A program made the translations under genes and the position numbers. A stretch of DNA of 64,000 nucleotides, from assembly GCF_018739865.1 (NCBI RefSeq), contig NZ_JADOER010000011.1:248001-312000 (forward strand). Direction: 5' to 3'. Shown in pieces: positions 5,575-15,422 of the stretch; positions within the stretch are counted from its first letter, which is position 1; each line of letters begins with the position of its first letter. This DNA is from Leptothoe kymatousa TAU-MAC 1615 (GTDB lineage Bacteria; Cyanobacteriota; Cyanobacteriia; Phormidesmidales; Phormidesmidaceae). A model generated the notes under the pieces. It was given only the letters and a program-made list of their open reading frames with translations, did no database searches and was not told where the DNA came from.

Positions 5575-6660
5575 GTGCCCCATCCATCCAAGCATCTGCT
5601 GATTGGCTCGACAGAGCCCTACAGCGGCAAGTCGGCCACCATAGCGGGGCTGGCTCTACAGCTTCGGGATCGCGGTATTGATATCGCCTATGCGAAACCA
5701 GTTGGGACCTGTCCCAGCGAGCAAGCGGGTCTTGATGAAGATGTGCAATTCATTTCTCAAATCCTCGAGCTGCCCACGGCGCGACTACGACCAACACTGC
5801 TCTCGTTAGATGCCCAGACCATCGAGCAGCAGCTAACCGAAGAAAATTCCGCCATTGACCCACAGCAAATGGCCACCTATTTAGATGGCCAAGGCGAGGA
5901 CCTGCTGTTAATTGAAGGGCCCGGCACACTAGAAGAAGGCACTCTCTTTGGCCTATCCCTATTGCAACTGGCCAGGGCCACTGAAGCCCAGGTGATGTTG
6001 GTCGCTCGGTTCCACTCAGTGTTGATTGTGGATGGTCTTTTAGCGGCCAAGCAAAAGTTAGGCGATCGCTTGATGGGGGTGCTCATCAATGACGTCCCTG
6101 ACAACCAGCTCCAGGCCGTGCAAACCAACGTAAAAAACTGCCTTGAACGTCATGGCATTCCAGTTTTAGGCATTTTACCCAGCACTCCCCTCATGCGCAG
6201 TGTGAGCGTTGGCGAACTTGTGCATCAGCTAAAAGCCGAGGTTCTCTGCTGCCAAGAGCGGATGGATTTGATGGTGCAGAGCTTAAGCATTGGTGCCATG
6301 AACGTCAACTCAGCGTTGAAGTACTTTCGCAAGGCTGACAACATGGCTGTGATTACCGGGGGTGACCGAGCCGACATTCAGTTAGCCGCGTTGGAAACCT
6401 CGACCCAATGTTTAGTGCTCACAGGCCACATCGCTCCGCGACCCGACATTATTAGCCGAGCTCAAGATTTAGAAGTGCCTATCCTGTCAGTTGACCTAGA
6501 CACGTTAACCACGGTGGAGATTATCGAACGTTCTTTTCAACAGGTCCGTTTGCAGGAGCCCATCAAGGTTCAGTGTATTCAGTTGCTGATGGAGAAACAC
6601 TTTGACGTACAGCGATTGATGAGCGAACTGAATTTATCCTCCCCTGCGGTCACAGCTTAA
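5575..6660 (+). CDS. Phosphotransacetylase N-terminal-like protein with DRTGG domain
   Basis: The protein joins an N-terminal P-loop domain of the BioD/cobyrinic-synthase type (GSTEPYSGKSATIAGL, residues about 11-26; VLINDVPDN around 186) to a C-terminal DRTGG domain (VITGGDRADIQLAAL). This is the architecture of the regulatory N-terminus of long bacterial Pta enzymes, but the catalytic phosphotransacetylase domain is absent, so enzyme activity as Pta is unlikely. A sensor or regulatory role is inference. The track starts at TTG 5554; the GTG at 5575 has AGGAG at ideal spacing and places the P-loop at the usual distance, so I prefer it (361 residues). A DprA-like gene follows 265 bp later. 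Confidence 0.85.
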   Translation: MPHPSKHLLIGSTEPYSGKSATIAGLALQLRDRGIDIAYAKPVGTCPSEQAGLDEDVQFISQILELPTARLRPTLLSLDAQTIEQQLTEENSAIDPQQMATYLDGQGEDLLLIEGPGTLEEGTLFGLSLLQLARATEAQVMLVARFHSVLIVDGLLAAKQKLGDRLMGVLINDVPDNQLQAVQTNVKNCLERHGIPVLGILPSTPLMRSVSVGELVHQLKAEVLCCQERMDLMVQSLSIGAMNVNSALKYFRKADNMAVITGGDRADIQLAALETSTQCLVLTGHIAPRPDIISRAQDLEVPILSVDLDTLTTVEIIERSFQQVRLQEPIKVQCIQLLMEKHFDVQRLMSELNLSSPAVTA

Positions 6661-6925
6661 GTCGGGGTCTACATCAATTCTGCATTAATAGTGTTGTTTC
6701 GTTGGAGGCTAACACCAGTAGCTGAACGTATCAGCTGACTGTCGCTGCCCCCGATACTGACATCGGATAGATAGGTCTTGCCTAAAGACGGCTAACAACC
6801 CCCAGAAGCTAGAAAATAATTTTCTTGTTGCGCACCAAATCCATCTGCCAGTGAAAGCAAGGTAGGTCTAAGGCCAAGGGTTTGGTAGAATTGGCCAGTC
6901 CCTTCATTAAAACTCTACAAAACCC

Positions 6926-7441
6926 TTGAGTCAGTCCCTTGATACACCCATCGAATCGCTTAAGGTAGACGATTTTCTGCAAGAGCTTGCTGCGATTCAG
7001 CAATCGGGCTCAAAGCGTATTGCTATCTTGGGTTCCAGGCATGTACCGATTACCCACCTGCGCTTGATTGAGCTAATGAGCTATGCGCTTGTGTTGGGCG
7101 GTAATCGTCTACTCACATCTGGAGCAACAGGGACAAACTCTGCGGCTATTCGTGGAGCAATGAAGGCGGACCCCAACCTATTGACGGTCATTCTGCCCCA
7201 AAGCCTCGACCACCAGCCGCGTGAGTCACGGGAGCAGCTAGATTCTGTCATTCATTTGGTCGAAAATTCTGCCAATGATCGCCTTAGCCTGGCAGAAGCG
7301 AGCGCTATCTGTAACCAGGAAATTATTTCTCGCTGCCAGCAGCTGATCTGTTTTGCGTTCCACGACAGCCACACCTTGCTAAAAACCTGCAAGGATGCGG
7401 AAGACCAGCGCAAGATTGTTACGTTGTTCTACTTCGACTAA
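6926..7441 (+). CDS. DprA/LOG-like Rossmann-fold protein
   Basis: This 171-residue protein has the nucleotide-binding pattern of the DprA/Smf and LOG superfamily: IAILGSRHV (about residues 32-40), then LLTSGATGTNSAAIRGAMKAD with the GATG...G turn, and LTVILPQSL. It corresponds to the short cyanobacterial family annotated as DNA recombination-mediator protein A, which lacks the extra domains of true DprA. A DNA-uptake role is therefore not assured. The start is TTG (6926) without a clear ribosome site. No better start lies nearby, and the first strand begins some 30 residues in. It follows the Pta-N/DRTGG gene on the same strand. Confidence 0.75.
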   Translation: MSQSLDTPIESLKVDDFLQELAAIQQSGSKRIAILGSRHVPITHLRLIELMSYALVLGGNRLLTSGATGTNSAAIRGAMKADPNLLTVILPQSLDHQPRESREQLDSVIHLVENSANDRLSLAEASAICNQEIISRCQQLICFAFHDSHTLLKTCKDAEDQRKIVTLFYFD

Positions 7442-11319: not shown

Positions 11320-11838
11320 ATGCGACGTGTTATCCCCATCCTCTTTCTAGCCACCAGTGCCGCATTGCCCCTGACCTCAGACGCCAGGGCAGATGGCCTC
11401 TCATCGTCTCCCCTAGAAGGATTCCAGCGCTTAGATGACGCCACCCTTCCCACCAAAACCATCTCCGGCAGCTGTCCAGAAACCGTTACCTTTTGGCGTG
11501 AACGCTTTGAATTTGAACATGGCGCCTACACAGGGGTGATGCTCAATGTCGCCACCATCGGGCAAGGAGTCACAACAGTCAGTGACCACCAGGAACGATC
11601 CATCACCTATAAAACACCCCTGAAACCTCAGTTTTATAGCTGCATTGGCACCCTTAGCAGCGGTCCCCATCCGCCGCTCGAACACCGTCACCTTTACCAC
11701 CTTTGGTTTGAACAAGGCCATGTGGTTTTTCGCCTTGACCTAGGGCCCAAGCCAGCGGATGCCCTCCAACTATCCAGCCTTAGCCACCACGAAATTATTG
11801 GCCAATATCCCTACGCCCAATGGCTAGCGGCCCACTAA
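11320..11838 (+). CDS. Secreted protein of unknown function, paralogue 1
   Basis: I do not recognise the family. The 172-residue product has a signal peptide (MRRVIPILFLATSAALPLTS, cleavage likely after DARA). The mature part keeps two cysteines, SGSCPETV and FYSCIG, that probably form a disulphide, and ends with HEIIGQYPYAQWLA. It is homologous across its length to the next gene: both share LSS/LSP...F.R.DD..LP, GMMLxVxTxGQG, the cysteine pair and the IxGQYPYxxW ending. The gap is 48 bp, so they are a tandem duplication in one transcription unit. A periplasmic location is inferred from the signal peptide. Confidence 0.8.
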   Translation: MRRVIPILFLATSAALPLTSDARADGLSSSPLEGFQRLDDATLPTKTISGSCPETVTFWRERFEFEHGAYTGVMLNVATIGQGVTTVSDHQERSITYKTPLKPQFYSCIGTLSSGPHPPLEHRHLYHLWFEQGHVVFRLDLGPKPADALQLSSLSHHEIIGQYPYAQWLAAH

Positions 11839-11886
11839 AGCCAGGGGCTGTTTAGCCCTAACCGATACGCAAAATTCAGCTAAACC

Positions 11887-12429
11887 ATGACACTGACTCA
11901 ATTTCGCCCCCTAGCATTACTACTAATCAGCACAGTCTCCATTGCACCTTCCGCCATGGCCGAGGGCCTATCCCCCTCCAGTCGCGACACATTCGAACGA
12001 CGAGACGATATCGCCCTTCCCGTTGAAACCACCGCCGGTGATTGCCCCACAGAAATCCGAATCTGGCAAGAATCCGCCATCCAATTTGAAGCTGGGGACA
12101 GCATTGGCATGATGCTGGATGTCAGCACCATGGGCCAAGGAAAAACGGAATTTATGGACAGCCAACAGCAATCCGTTACGTTTCGCACACCGTTGAATCA
12201 GGCGTTCTATAACTGCGTTGGTTATTTAGGTGACGGCAACACCCTGGACGAGGCGGCTCAACACTATCGCCAGCTATACGATATTTGGTTTGGCCAGGGA
12301 CATGTTTATTTTCAGTTTGATATTGGTCCCATTGCTCCCCAGGCCGATGAGAATTGGTATTTTGCCAACATTACGCATCAAGACATTGTGGGGCAATATC
12401 CCTACGTTCGCTGGACCTTTGGGGATTAG
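11887..12429 (+). CDS. Secreted protein of unknown function, paralogue 2
   Basis: This 180-residue protein is the second copy of the tandem pair. The signal peptide is MTLTQFRPLALLLISTVSIA with a likely cut after AMA. The two cysteines are in AGDCPTEI and FYNCVG, and the C-terminus is ITHQDIVGQYPYVRWTFGD. Compared with paralogue 1 it has an insert around GNTLDEAAQHYRQLYDIWF. Its last 161 bp are repeated almost exactly at 13297-13457, with one mismatch, inside a truncated copy. The function is unknown. No lipoprotein box is seen. Confidence 0.8.
   Translation: MTLTQFRPLALLLISTVSIAPSAMAEGLSPSSRDTFERRDDIALPVETTAGDCPTEIRIWQESAIQFEAGDSIGMMLDVSTMGQGKTEFMDSQQQSVTFRTPLNQAFYNCVGYLGDGNTLDEAAQHYRQLYDIWFGQGHVYFQFDIGPIAPQADENWYFANITHQDIVGQYPYVRWTFGD
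12262..12422 (+). repeat. 161-bp direct repeat, copy A (inside paralogue 2)
   Basis: By direct comparison this 161-bp stretch matches 13297-13457 with a single substitution (ATATTTGG versus ATAGTTGG). The offset is 1035 bp. The stretch between the copies contains the VapBC-like module. Confidence 0.93.
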
Positions 12430-12443
12430 GATTTGATCTGTGG

Positions 12444-12824
12444 TCAACGGTTATAGGGTTGCTCCATACTCAAGCCTGGAACGATGCGATAGTGCTTCAC
12501 GTTGAACGTACAGAGGGTGGCACTACGTCCGACGGCACAAGCAGCAATTAGGGCATCAATCAGGCCAACTTTGTTAGACAGATGGTATGCCGTAAAGTCG
12601 GATAAAGCTCTAGCACAGTCAGTTTCAGTCGGCCAAACAATTGGTAATGGTGCGACTAGCTGTAAAACCTTGCGAACCTGTTGCTTGTTCTGAGCATCCT
12701 GAATCAACTCCATGACGGCAAAGCCAGGAATACTGGGTAAATCTGGGAGGGAAGCGAACCAAACCAGTGCAGGTTCGTAGCCCCGTTGGATATCAATTAT
12801 GACGTCGGTATCAACTATATACAT
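12444..12824 (-). CDS. PIN-domain toxin, VapC-like
   Basis: VapC toxins are PIN-fold RNases that cut tRNA or rRNA. The 126-residue product starts MYIVDTDVIIDIQRGYEP with the first acidic residue of the site (D5; D7 nearby), has E39 in AVMELIQDA, and the third cluster in GLIDALIAACAVG. The order and spacing match active PIN domains. The start codon is ATG. The gene lies 8 bp downstream of its probable antitoxin, forming a classical two-gene operon, and is convergent with secreted paralogue 2. Confidence 0.87.
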   Translation of the reverse strand: MYIVDTDVIIDIQRGYEPALVWFASLPDLPSIPGFAVMELIQDAQNKQQVRKVLQLVAPLPIVWPTETDCARALSDFTAYHLSNKVGLIDALIAACAVGRSATLCTFNVKHYRIVPGLSMEQPYNR

Positions 12825-12832
12825 CTGCGGCC

Positions 12833-13093
12833 CTAGCTACGCTCGCGATTTTCGGCAGCATGGCGTAACTTACGGGCATAGTCCTGGCTATCGGCGATAT
12901 CAGCACGAGAGCTGACCACTCCAATGGTTTCCCAATAAGCGACGAGGTCTAGTCCTGTTTTGGGAGGGTCCTGCAGAAAAGGACGAAATGCAAGTACACG
13001 CAGAATGTACTCTGCTAAGGGCAATTTGAGTTGAGATGCCTCGGCAGATAAATCGCTTTCTAGTTCAGATGGGAGTTCCAGACTAATTACCAT
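12833..13093 (-). CDS. Probable VapB-like antitoxin
   Basis: This 86-residue protein precedes the PIN toxin by 8 bp. The ORF track begins at 13162, but the ATG at 13093 gives MVISLELPSELESDLSAEAS, a ribbon-helix-helix-like N-terminus, and the upstream 23 residues look non-coding. The middle LPLAEYILRVLAF is a typical amphipathic helix, and the C-terminus (DYARKLRHAAENRERS) is charged, as in the toxin-wrapping tails of antitoxins. The role is inferred from position, size and the partner gene. Such antitoxins normally repress their own promoter. Confidence 0.75.
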   Translation of the reverse strand: MVISLELPSELESDLSAEASQLKLPLAEYILRVLAFRPFLQDPPKTGLDLVAYWETIGVVSSRADIADSQDYARKLRHAAENRERS

Positions 13094-13191
13094 TGCGCTT
13101 CTCTGCACGCTTACATCTGCGTTTAATGATATCGAATCTATCAATGCAACGCAGGATTGCATTCTCGCTTTATTGACTCAGAATTGATAGG

Positions 13192-13464
13192 CATGATGCT
13201 TATCCAACAGGTATCAGTAGGCACAGGAATTGTTGCCCCACAGATGGCTGCATTGGTGATTTTGGGAACAGCGATACCCTGGATAATGCGGCTCGTCACT
13301 ATCGCCAGCTATACGATAGTTGGTTTGGCCAGGGACATGTTTATTTTCAGTTTGATATTGGTCCCATTGCTCCCCAGGCCGATGAGAATTGGTATTTTGC
13401 CAACATTACGCATCAAGACATTGTGGGGCAATATCCCTACGTTCGCTGGACCTTTGGAGACTAA
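13192..13464 (+). pseudogene. Truncated copy of secreted paralogue 2
   Basis: The stretch repeats the 3' half of the secreted paralogue. It contains GCIGDFGNSDTLDNAARHYR, then the same residues to the QYPYVRWTFGD end and a TAA at 13462. The 161 bp at 13297-13457 are nearly identical to the intact gene; the upstream part (13192-13296) is diverged and shifted in frame, with fragments such as GGCATGATGCT still matching. There is no start codon or signal peptide in frame. The ORF track frame 13157-13537 covers a different, meaningless frame. Confidence 0.85.
13297..13457 (+). repeat. 161-bp direct repeat, copy B (inside truncated paralogue)
   Basis: This is the second copy of the repeat at 12262-12422, with one mismatch over 161 bp. 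Its 3' edge coincides with the end of the coding similarity, immediately before the remnant of a PIN toxin on the other strand. Confidence 0.93.
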
Positions 13465-13587
13465 CATCTCAGTATCGCCAGTGGCACAGAATACTCTGTT
13501 GCAAATGCTATTCCGAATATCCTTTGCTAGTTTCTGATCGCCACTAATAAACCAAAGGAAAATATGGGTGTCTAACAGGATTCTCAT
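13465..13587 (-). pseudogene. N-terminal remnant of a second PIN-domain toxin
   Basis: Reading from ATG at 13587, the frame gives MRILLDTHIFLWFISGDQKL, the standard N-terminus of VapC-like PIN toxins (LLDTHIFLWF.SGD). It continues for about 40 residues, then runs antisense into the duplicated secreted-protein fragment, where the sequence loses PIN character. The remaining PIN acidic residues are missing, so the toxin must be inactive. The ATG overlaps the TGA of the preceding antitoxin-like tail (ATGA), the usual coupling in antitoxin-toxin pairs. Confidence 0.8.
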
Positions 13588-14252
13588 TGCCCCTCAAATG
13601 CACTTAAAATTTCTTCCGGCAAAGGTGCATCGAAGTCATCAGGAACTGTAAATTCTCCAGCACACAGACCAAAGGGCCGTTGTGGACTAGCATTCAATAC
13701 CAAACCAAATAATTCCTGGATCGTCAGCTGCCAATCCCTGGCAAACATGGGTACAGAGATAATGTCATTTGGCCCATCCAATACGTCAGGTTCCCGTTTG
13801 GAATGGTAGATAAAGACGGTTTGTTCCACTGGATCAATTAACCAACCGACCTCAGTTCCGTGTCGCAAACAGTGCAGAATATTTTTCGTTACTTTTGTTT
13901 GGCTTTGATCTGGAGATAGGATCTCAATGGTCCAATCTGGCGCAGCCGAAAATGCGTTGAAAACCTTTCCATTCTCGTCACGAGGAATGCGGTCCCAGCG
14001 AAAAACGGCAATATCAGGAACCGTTGAACGACCACCAAAAGTGCAGCGTAATTAAGGAAATGCATGGGCAGTCCGTTTGGAGTTGACCACCCCGCTGATG
14101 GCAGGAACAAGCGCTCTTTGAATAATGCTATGGTTCCCCTGAGACATTGGCTTCTGGATGATTTGACCGTCGATGTATTCGCTGGCAGGCTTTGTTTCTG
14201 GTAGTTGTAAGAATTCTGTCAGGGTCGTTGGTTTCGATGGTGCCTGCATCAT
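13584..14252 (-). pseudogene. Uma2 gene with premature stop, fused to an antitoxin C-terminus
   Basis: Reading from ATG at 14252, the frame gives MMQAPSKPTTLTEFLQLPET, a Uma2 (DUF820) endonuclease-like start. It runs to a TAA at 14052-14054, in the spot where Uma2 proteins usually have FPELR (here FP*LR). The same frame then continues through RCTFGGRSTVPDIAVFRWDR, DWTIEILSPDQSQTKV and RHGTEVGWLIDPVEQTVF to the family end. A single codon change thus breaks it. The last about 35 residues, RPFGLCAGEFTVPDDFDAPLP onwards, are not Uma2 but resemble the C-terminus of Phd/YefM-type antitoxins, and their stop overlaps the PIN remnant. The ORF track shows this as two separate pieces. Confidence 0.82.
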
Positions 14253-14531: not shown

Positions 14532-15287
14532 CTAAAAATCCTCTTGTTCTAGTTCCTCAATTACCTGTAGCCCGCGGGCATCGCCCAGGTTCAAAATAGA
14601 CGCGCGGGCATCGTCCCGCACCCCCAAATCCTCATCGTCCACAAAGGTTTCAATCAACGCATCAATGGCGGTGGCATAGACCACGTTATAGGTGAGGTCT
14701 TTGCACAGCTCCCCAATGGACCAGGCACAGTTGCTGCGCACAATGGCGATGGGGTCGTTGCGCATGGTTTTTACCAATGCCGGAATCGCCTTGAGAATTG
14801 CGTCGAAGCTGATTTTTCCCATTTGCCCCAGGGCACTCGCCGCCCACAGCCGCACCACGGACATATCATTTTCAATGGAGTTTACTAAGGGAGCCACCGC
14901 CTTTTCATTTTGGCAATTTCCCAAGGCCCACACCACCGCCTTACGCACATAGCCGTGGGAATCCGACTGGAGCTGTTCGATCAACGCATCAACGGCAGTT
15001 TCACTCGGATTGCGTCCTAGGGCATAGGCCGCATTCACCCGCACCAAGGGGCTGTCATCCTTGAGCAGCTCAATTAATCGAGGAATCGCACGGGGCTCTT
15101 GAATTTTATAAAACGCGCGTGCTGCCAACATGCGCTGCTGAAGATTCTCTGACAGCAGCAACGGCAGCATCTGATCCGGGTTATAGCGAGGCGCTTCATC
15201 CTCTAAGGGGATGTCATCTAGCGGATCGATGGGGGCATCAAACCCCACCTCGGCGTCTAAAACATTAAGAGCATCAATATCGTCCAT
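14532..15287 (-). CDS. HEAT-repeat protein, IaiH-like
   Basis: The 251-residue protein starts at ATG 15287 (MDDIDALNVLDAEVG); the track adds nine poor residues. After an acidic N-terminus, about five PBS-lyase-type HEAT repeats follow, for instance PRAIPRLIELLKDDSPLVRVNAAYALG and ETAVDALIEQLQSDSHGYVRKAVVWALG. Size and repeat number match the cyanobacterial HEAT protein IaiH (Synechocystis slr1098 type), reported to work with IscA in iron-sulphur handling. CpcE/NblB-like bilin proteins are alternatives. It is 135 bp downstream of hemL on the same strand order (hemL is upstream on the reverse strand only after its own gap), so co-transcription is uncertain. Confidence 0.7.
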   Translation of the reverse strand: MDDIDALNVLDAEVGFDAPIDPLDDIPLEDEAPRYNPDQMLPLLLSENLQQRMLAARAFYKIQEPRAIPRLIELLKDDSPLVRVNAAYALGRNPSETAVDALIEQLQSDSHGYVRKAVVWALGNCQNEKAVAPLVNSIENDMSVVRLWAASALGQMGKISFDAILKAIPALVKTMRNDPIAIVRSNCAWSIGELCKDLTYNVVYATAIDALIETFVDDEDLGVRDDARASILNLGDARGLQVIEELEQEDF

Positions 15288-15422
15288 GGATGGTAAGCGG
15301 TGAGCAGCCCGCACGTAGATTAATAAAAGTCAGGTAATGGCTGACATCAACCATTACCCCAGATATGTCTATAAAAATGATGACTAGGCTACCGTTGAGG
15401 TAGCCTAAATTCCTCCAGCTAA

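Follow-up and report, generated by a model that had tools for sequence, protein, structure and literature searches.

The locus lies in a window of 64,000 nucleotides, the whole stretch of DNA analysed here, from the genome of Leptothoe kymatousa TAU-MAC 1615 (G000), which is metagenome-assembled, comprises 18 contigs, and is an estimated 75% complete. Two paralogous secreted-protein genes, par1 (11320–11838) and par2 (11887–12429), are located on the plus strand; they are approximately 40% identical, and neither has a match in Pfam or NCBIfam. The intact par2 has an orthologue beside an SSS symporter gene in all eight genomes of the genus. The tandem pair (11320–12429) was seen only in the window genome, each of the other seven having one intact gene. 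Downstream, the minus strand carries a gene for a VapC-type PIN-domain toxin (12444–12824; PF01850, E = 2e-8, 35.3 bits against a cut-off of 23.6), whose stop codon is about 15 bp away from that of par2, and the NCBIfam VapC equivalogs match this toxin below their cut-off only. Directly upstream of the toxin gene is that of a VapB/CopG-like antitoxin (12833–13097, or with a longer start; minus strand), which matches CopG_antitoxin below the cut-off (E = 0.013). This pairing is kept in most of the loci compared, which span several families.

A truncated second copy of par follows on the plus strand (13248–13464). Its 5' end is missing, and its 3' tail is open in the par2 frame to a stop codon of its own. 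It is adjoined by the remnant of a second PIN/VapC-like gene (13465–13587, minus strand), which was recognized by reading the translation and has no Pfam match; only the N-terminal part is left, cut off at the par tail. Next comes an older cargo, a frameshifted Uma2 gene (13584–14252, minus strand) that is split over three frames. An intact homologue stands beside a par tail in the congener G002 (L024 5424–5987), and the G002 protein in turn has a close homologue (90% protein identity), also intact, beside the tail of an ArsR-family gene in G059. A HEAT-repeat protein gene (14532–15314, minus strand) closes the locus; it is the right-hand neighbour of par in relatives free of cargo.

Ungapped comparison confirmed the repeat reported by an earlier, sequence-only reading of this DNA: positions 12262–12422, within the 3' end of par2, recur on the same strand at 13297–13457 (161 bp, offset 1035) with a single mismatch at 12284, and the toxin and antitoxin genes of the vapBC-type pair are the only genes between the copies. 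At this offset, the tract is bounded by mismatches at 12260 and 12261 on the left and at 12423 and 12426 on the right. The wider match (12213–12428 and 13248–13463) spans 216 sites and has 93% identity. Of its 16 mismatches, 15 lie outside the tract; the tract is approximately 99% identical, and the blocks on either side approximately 70%. Among 200,000 permutations, none reached so long a stretch with at most one mismatch. Because divergence returns sharply on both sides, the identity represents a tract within two diverged gene copies, for which gene conversion from one par copy to the other is the best explanation. The sequence-only reading had proposed a recent gene conversion or partial duplication; the sharp tract fits conversion between the copies and lends the first of these proposals partial support.

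The same pattern bears on the possibility that a single insertion of vapBC copied some 200 bp from the 3' end of the resident par gene and that the copies diverged later. The layout resembles that reported for Helicobacter restriction-modification genes (PMC1643837 and PMC3031569). However, a target duplication predicts even divergence rather than a nearly identical tract between diverged blocks, and the copies at the ArsR locus described below are alleles of different lineages, not duplicates. We consider this explanation improbable. An error of assembly would be conceivable in an incomplete, metagenome-assembled genome of 18 contigs, where repeats are prone to misjoining, but the two copies have distinct flanks and several private differences, and the order par, toxin–antitoxin pair, par tail, and Uma2 is also found in the independent genome G002. 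Misassembly is therefore scarcely credible.

The two par copies end in TTT GGA GAC TAA and TTT GGG GAT TAG, respectively, and these differences are synonymous; the codon differences between the copies as a whole comprise 9 non-synonymous and 4 synonymous changes. The tail has a lineage-specific insertion of six residues in common with par2, which is its closest sequence. Furthermore, weak similarity to par at about 13165–13247 (plus strand; shuffle p ~0.015), possibly a degraded 5' remnant, suggests that the second copy was formerly longer. These features bear on another origin, a decayed tandem paralogue: vapBC would have inserted between par2 and a former par3, which lost its 5' part and had its 3' end converted by par2. 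The tandem arrangement of par1 and par2, the weak upstream extension, and the common insertion are in its favour. Against it, the other seven genomes of the genus each hold one intact par gene, and a local paralogue leaves unexplained why the truncated-tail layout recurs with varied cargos at unrelated genes (ArsR, GNAT, glmS, cysS, and ligase). We regard this origin as possible but rather unlikely.

The par site was compared among congeners, which include Leptolyngbya sp. PCC 7375, Leptolyngbya sp. Heron Island J, Leptolyngbya cf. ectocarpi LEGE 11479, and Adonisia turfae. This comparison revealed the module-free state for which the sequence-only reading had proposed to look. In G005 and G006, a single par copy is followed by a short spacer and then the HEAT-repeat gene, with no cargo; genomes with only one repeat copy do exist, and these two are congeners of the window genome, not strains of one species. 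Other genomes carry other insertions at this site. G003 has a putative membrane protein gene, and G004 (PCC 7375) has, between par and the HEAT-repeat gene (L026 8316–11080), an IS630-type transposase gene and an AAA_15 ATPase gene with a DUF3226 partner, the latter two possibly forming a defence pair. In G002, an unrelated toxin–antitoxin pair (DUF433/DUF5615) comes after par, and beyond it lie a truncated par tail and the intact homologue of the window Uma2 gene. A tree of the flanking genes groups G002 with G001 and G006, apart from G000. As G002 nevertheless carries the same Uma2 gene as the window, this cargo was either lost in some lineages or transferred.

No mobile element was recognized at the repeat. 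A search of the window sequence with a threshold of 30 bp found no inverted repeats of at least that length, and no transposase gene marks the ends of the insert, the vapBC pair lying alone between the copies. The repeat ends have no mobile element, integrase, or att site, and the repeat itself is native host gene sequence. These results speak against the suggestion of the sequence-only reading that the module may excise by recombination, that is, that vapBC enters and leaves through the repeats as recombination sites. Single-copy relatives do exist, and a repeat of 161 bp is long enough for RecA-dependent deletion. However, the repeat ends lack an integrase or att site, the integron attC site of related modules is absent from the window, the single-copy relatives hold no other trace of vapBC, and none of the genomes compared shows a reversal. 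A RecA-type deletion between the par copies is possible, and it would merely restore one gene end. We regard an excisable module as highly unlikely.

vapBC was missing from all seven other genomes of the genus, whereas homologues of its toxin in other cyanobacterial families are 85–88% identical at the protein level. Related modules resemble it in DNA sequence up to the vapC stop codon on one side and to near the vapB start, at most about 13144, on the other. Judged from this distribution, the window vapBC is a foreign, horizontally acquired module. In most of its relatives, an attC-type integron site lies straight after vapC (sites in L087–L112). A covariance model built from 18 such sites was run on 29 genomes and detected attC-type sites in 26. 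Integron integrases exceeded the cut-off in 43 of the 97 genomes searched; the 75% complete G000 gave no integrase match above the cut-off. No attC site was detected after the window vapC or elsewhere in the window, and this site was either lost or never there. As the window has no attC site, the idea that its repeat stems from attC was discarded.

Flanking repeats are not peculiar to the window. Six of 34 vapBC loci have direct repeats on either side, no more than 200 bp from each end, compared with 0.57% of control windows from the same regions. The six include the index case, one attC case, and one dispersed-repeat case, the remaining three being L089, L094, and L095. Repeats other than gene tails were left out as cases, namely those at L096 and L102, which are attC copies, and that at L105, a dispersed 42-bp repeat. 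L089 was likewise left out; its repeat lies beside attC cores, upstream of an XPB-like helicase gene, and is of a different kind from the gene-tail repeats. At this locus (G056), a sequence of 83 bp that comes after an attC core occurs both before vapB and after the attC site of vapC (5907–5989 and 6878–6960, in the orientation that places vapC on the minus strand).

The layout of an intact gene, cargo, and a 5'-truncated tail of the same gene was found at par, ArsR, GNAT, glmS, cysS, and DNA-ligase genes. The cargo behind the ArsR-family gene is vapBC in G014, DUF433/DUF5615 in G032, Uma2 in G059, and GFA with a ribbon-helix-helix gene in G062; behind the GNAT gene of G079, it is vapBC. Scans of approximately 1.5 Mb in four genomes added cases at glmS (G059), cysS (G014), and the ATP-dependent DNA ligase gene (G079), the last with a UPF0175/DUF3368-like pair as cargo. 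Ten events were counted in total, including the two par cases.

The GNAT and ArsR loci revealed where the tails come from. The GNAT gene is directly followed by vapBC in G083 and G080 (truncated in G080), and by DUF433/DUF5615 in G069. G079 combines both arrangements: its GNAT–vapBC part has the G083-type junction, its GNAT tail leads into DUF433/DUF5615 with the G069-type downstream sequence, and each half matches its source. After vapC, the G079 sequence tracks G083 as far as GCGATCGC and then switches to the GNAT gene, while G083 continues elsewhere. In G069, an attC-type site (L161 6610–6701) was observed just upstream of the GNAT gene, which therefore may have come in as part of a cassette array. 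At the ArsR loci, all four tails are closer to the full gene of another species than to that of their own genome: 91% identity to G074 against 70% to its own gene in G014, 86% to G062 against 81% in G059, 90% to G059 against 79% in G062, and, by a small margin, 90% to G059 against 88% in G032. From these sequence matches, we conclude that the GNAT and ArsR events each joined two haplotypes of a single locus and did not arise through duplication by an inserting element.

We modestly favor the same kind of event for the window: two haplotypes of one chromosomal site were probably fused, placing par–vapBC before a 5'-truncated par end, the PIN remnant, and Uma2. The resident locus would have recombined with incoming DNA that carried par and the horizontally moving vapBC. 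At one end the exchange would have been homologous, within par or upstream of it, and at the other an illegitimate joint would have formed inside the resident par gene. The product would be an intact gene, one cargo, the truncated gene, and a second cargo. Gene conversion between the par copies would afterwards have rendered 161 bp nearly identical. For the window par locus, we infer this common origin, the route of entry (transformation, for example), and the direction of conversion. Two observations count against a fusion at the window: the closeness of the tail to par2, including the common six-residue insertion, which fits a paralogue formed in place as well, and the excess of non-synonymous codon differences. 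Neither the donor haplotype, with par directly followed by the window vapBC, nor the resident haplotype, with par, PIN, and Uma2 but without vapBC, was found for the par locus, and its history is therefore argued by analogy. The proposal of the sequence-only reading that the repeat may record how the module entered is strengthened in part, by the single-copy relatives without the module and by the same scar at other loci, while the step at the window itself rests on that analogy. The layout looks like the scar left by fusing two versions of one chromosomal site, not like a self-excising mobile element.

The GNAT joint of G079 falls exactly at the HIP1 octamer GCGATCGC. Joints at this octamer or a one-base variant occur in 4 of the 10 events (par of G002, ArsR of G032, GNAT of G079, and glmS of G059), whereas the expected share of positions that close to one is approximately 2.6%. 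The two events found after the HIP1 idea had been formed (cysS and ligase) have joints elsewhere. This idea is a mere lead, because it was drawn partly from the same events and the two later ones lack HIP1. That cyanobacteria stack toxin–antitoxin pairs and other cargo behind host genes by haplotype fusion, with joints preferring HIP1, is thus a doubtful generalization at present. If it is true, the over-abundant octamer would act as a recombination breakpoint.

The window locus alone is a modest finding, and the recurring architecture is of more interest. Long direct repeats around addiction modules have been interpreted as target duplications that a mobile module creates. Our results suggest that at least some of these repeats are scars of the fusion of two haplotypes at one locus. 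Such fusion would account for the accumulation of transposase-free gene modules behind certain host genes. It also offers a simple sequence test, namely whether the truncated tail is more similar to the gene of its own host or to that of another lineage.

Insertion with long target duplication is known from the restriction-modification genes of Helicobacter pylori (Nobusato et al. 2000, Gene 259:99), as described in PMC1643837, PMC3031569, and PMC4978471. Both there and here, a selfish-type module is flanked by a long direct repeat of host sequence, the cargo is of a similar class (addiction-type modules, a putative nuclease), and relatives show the single-copy state (here the congeners G005 and G006). 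In contrast to that pattern, the cargo here is often a toxin–antitoxin pair, relatives carry integron attC sites, and the hosts are cyanobacteria. In a long target duplication, both copies come from one target. The ArsR tails, as alleles of other lineages, do not; the window shows diverged blocks around an identical tract. The GNAT and ArsR loci show that the two copies may stem from alleles of separate lineages, so such a repeat need not be a duplication created on insertion. In the literature on toxin–antitoxin modules with flanking direct repeats, no direct precedent was found beyond the Helicobacter pattern, and the haplotype-fusion reading was not found in the literature searched, which covered few subscription journals.

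The module itself resembles type II VapBC or PIN–CopG pairs in that its PIN toxin gene is immediately preceded, in the same orientation, by a small antitoxin gene. It differs from the typical pair in the weak match of the antitoxin to CopG_antitoxin, and its toxin–antitoxin function is predicted. Relatives of this vapBC resemble integron cassettes, or attC clusters that lack an integrase (CALIN), in the attC-type site usually found right after vapC, and integron integrases are common in these cyanobacteria. In contrast, the window copy has no attC site, and the duplicated gene tails do not start at attC cores; therefore, cassette recombination alone does not create the repeat. The proposed route resembles homology-facilitated illegitimate recombination (PMC3240628), which combines homology on one side with illegitimate joining on the other and can yield a donor gene and cargo fused to a truncated resident gene. 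That process is known from laboratory transformation and conjugation, whereas here we infer it from natural genomes, in which one joint is resolved to a single octamer.
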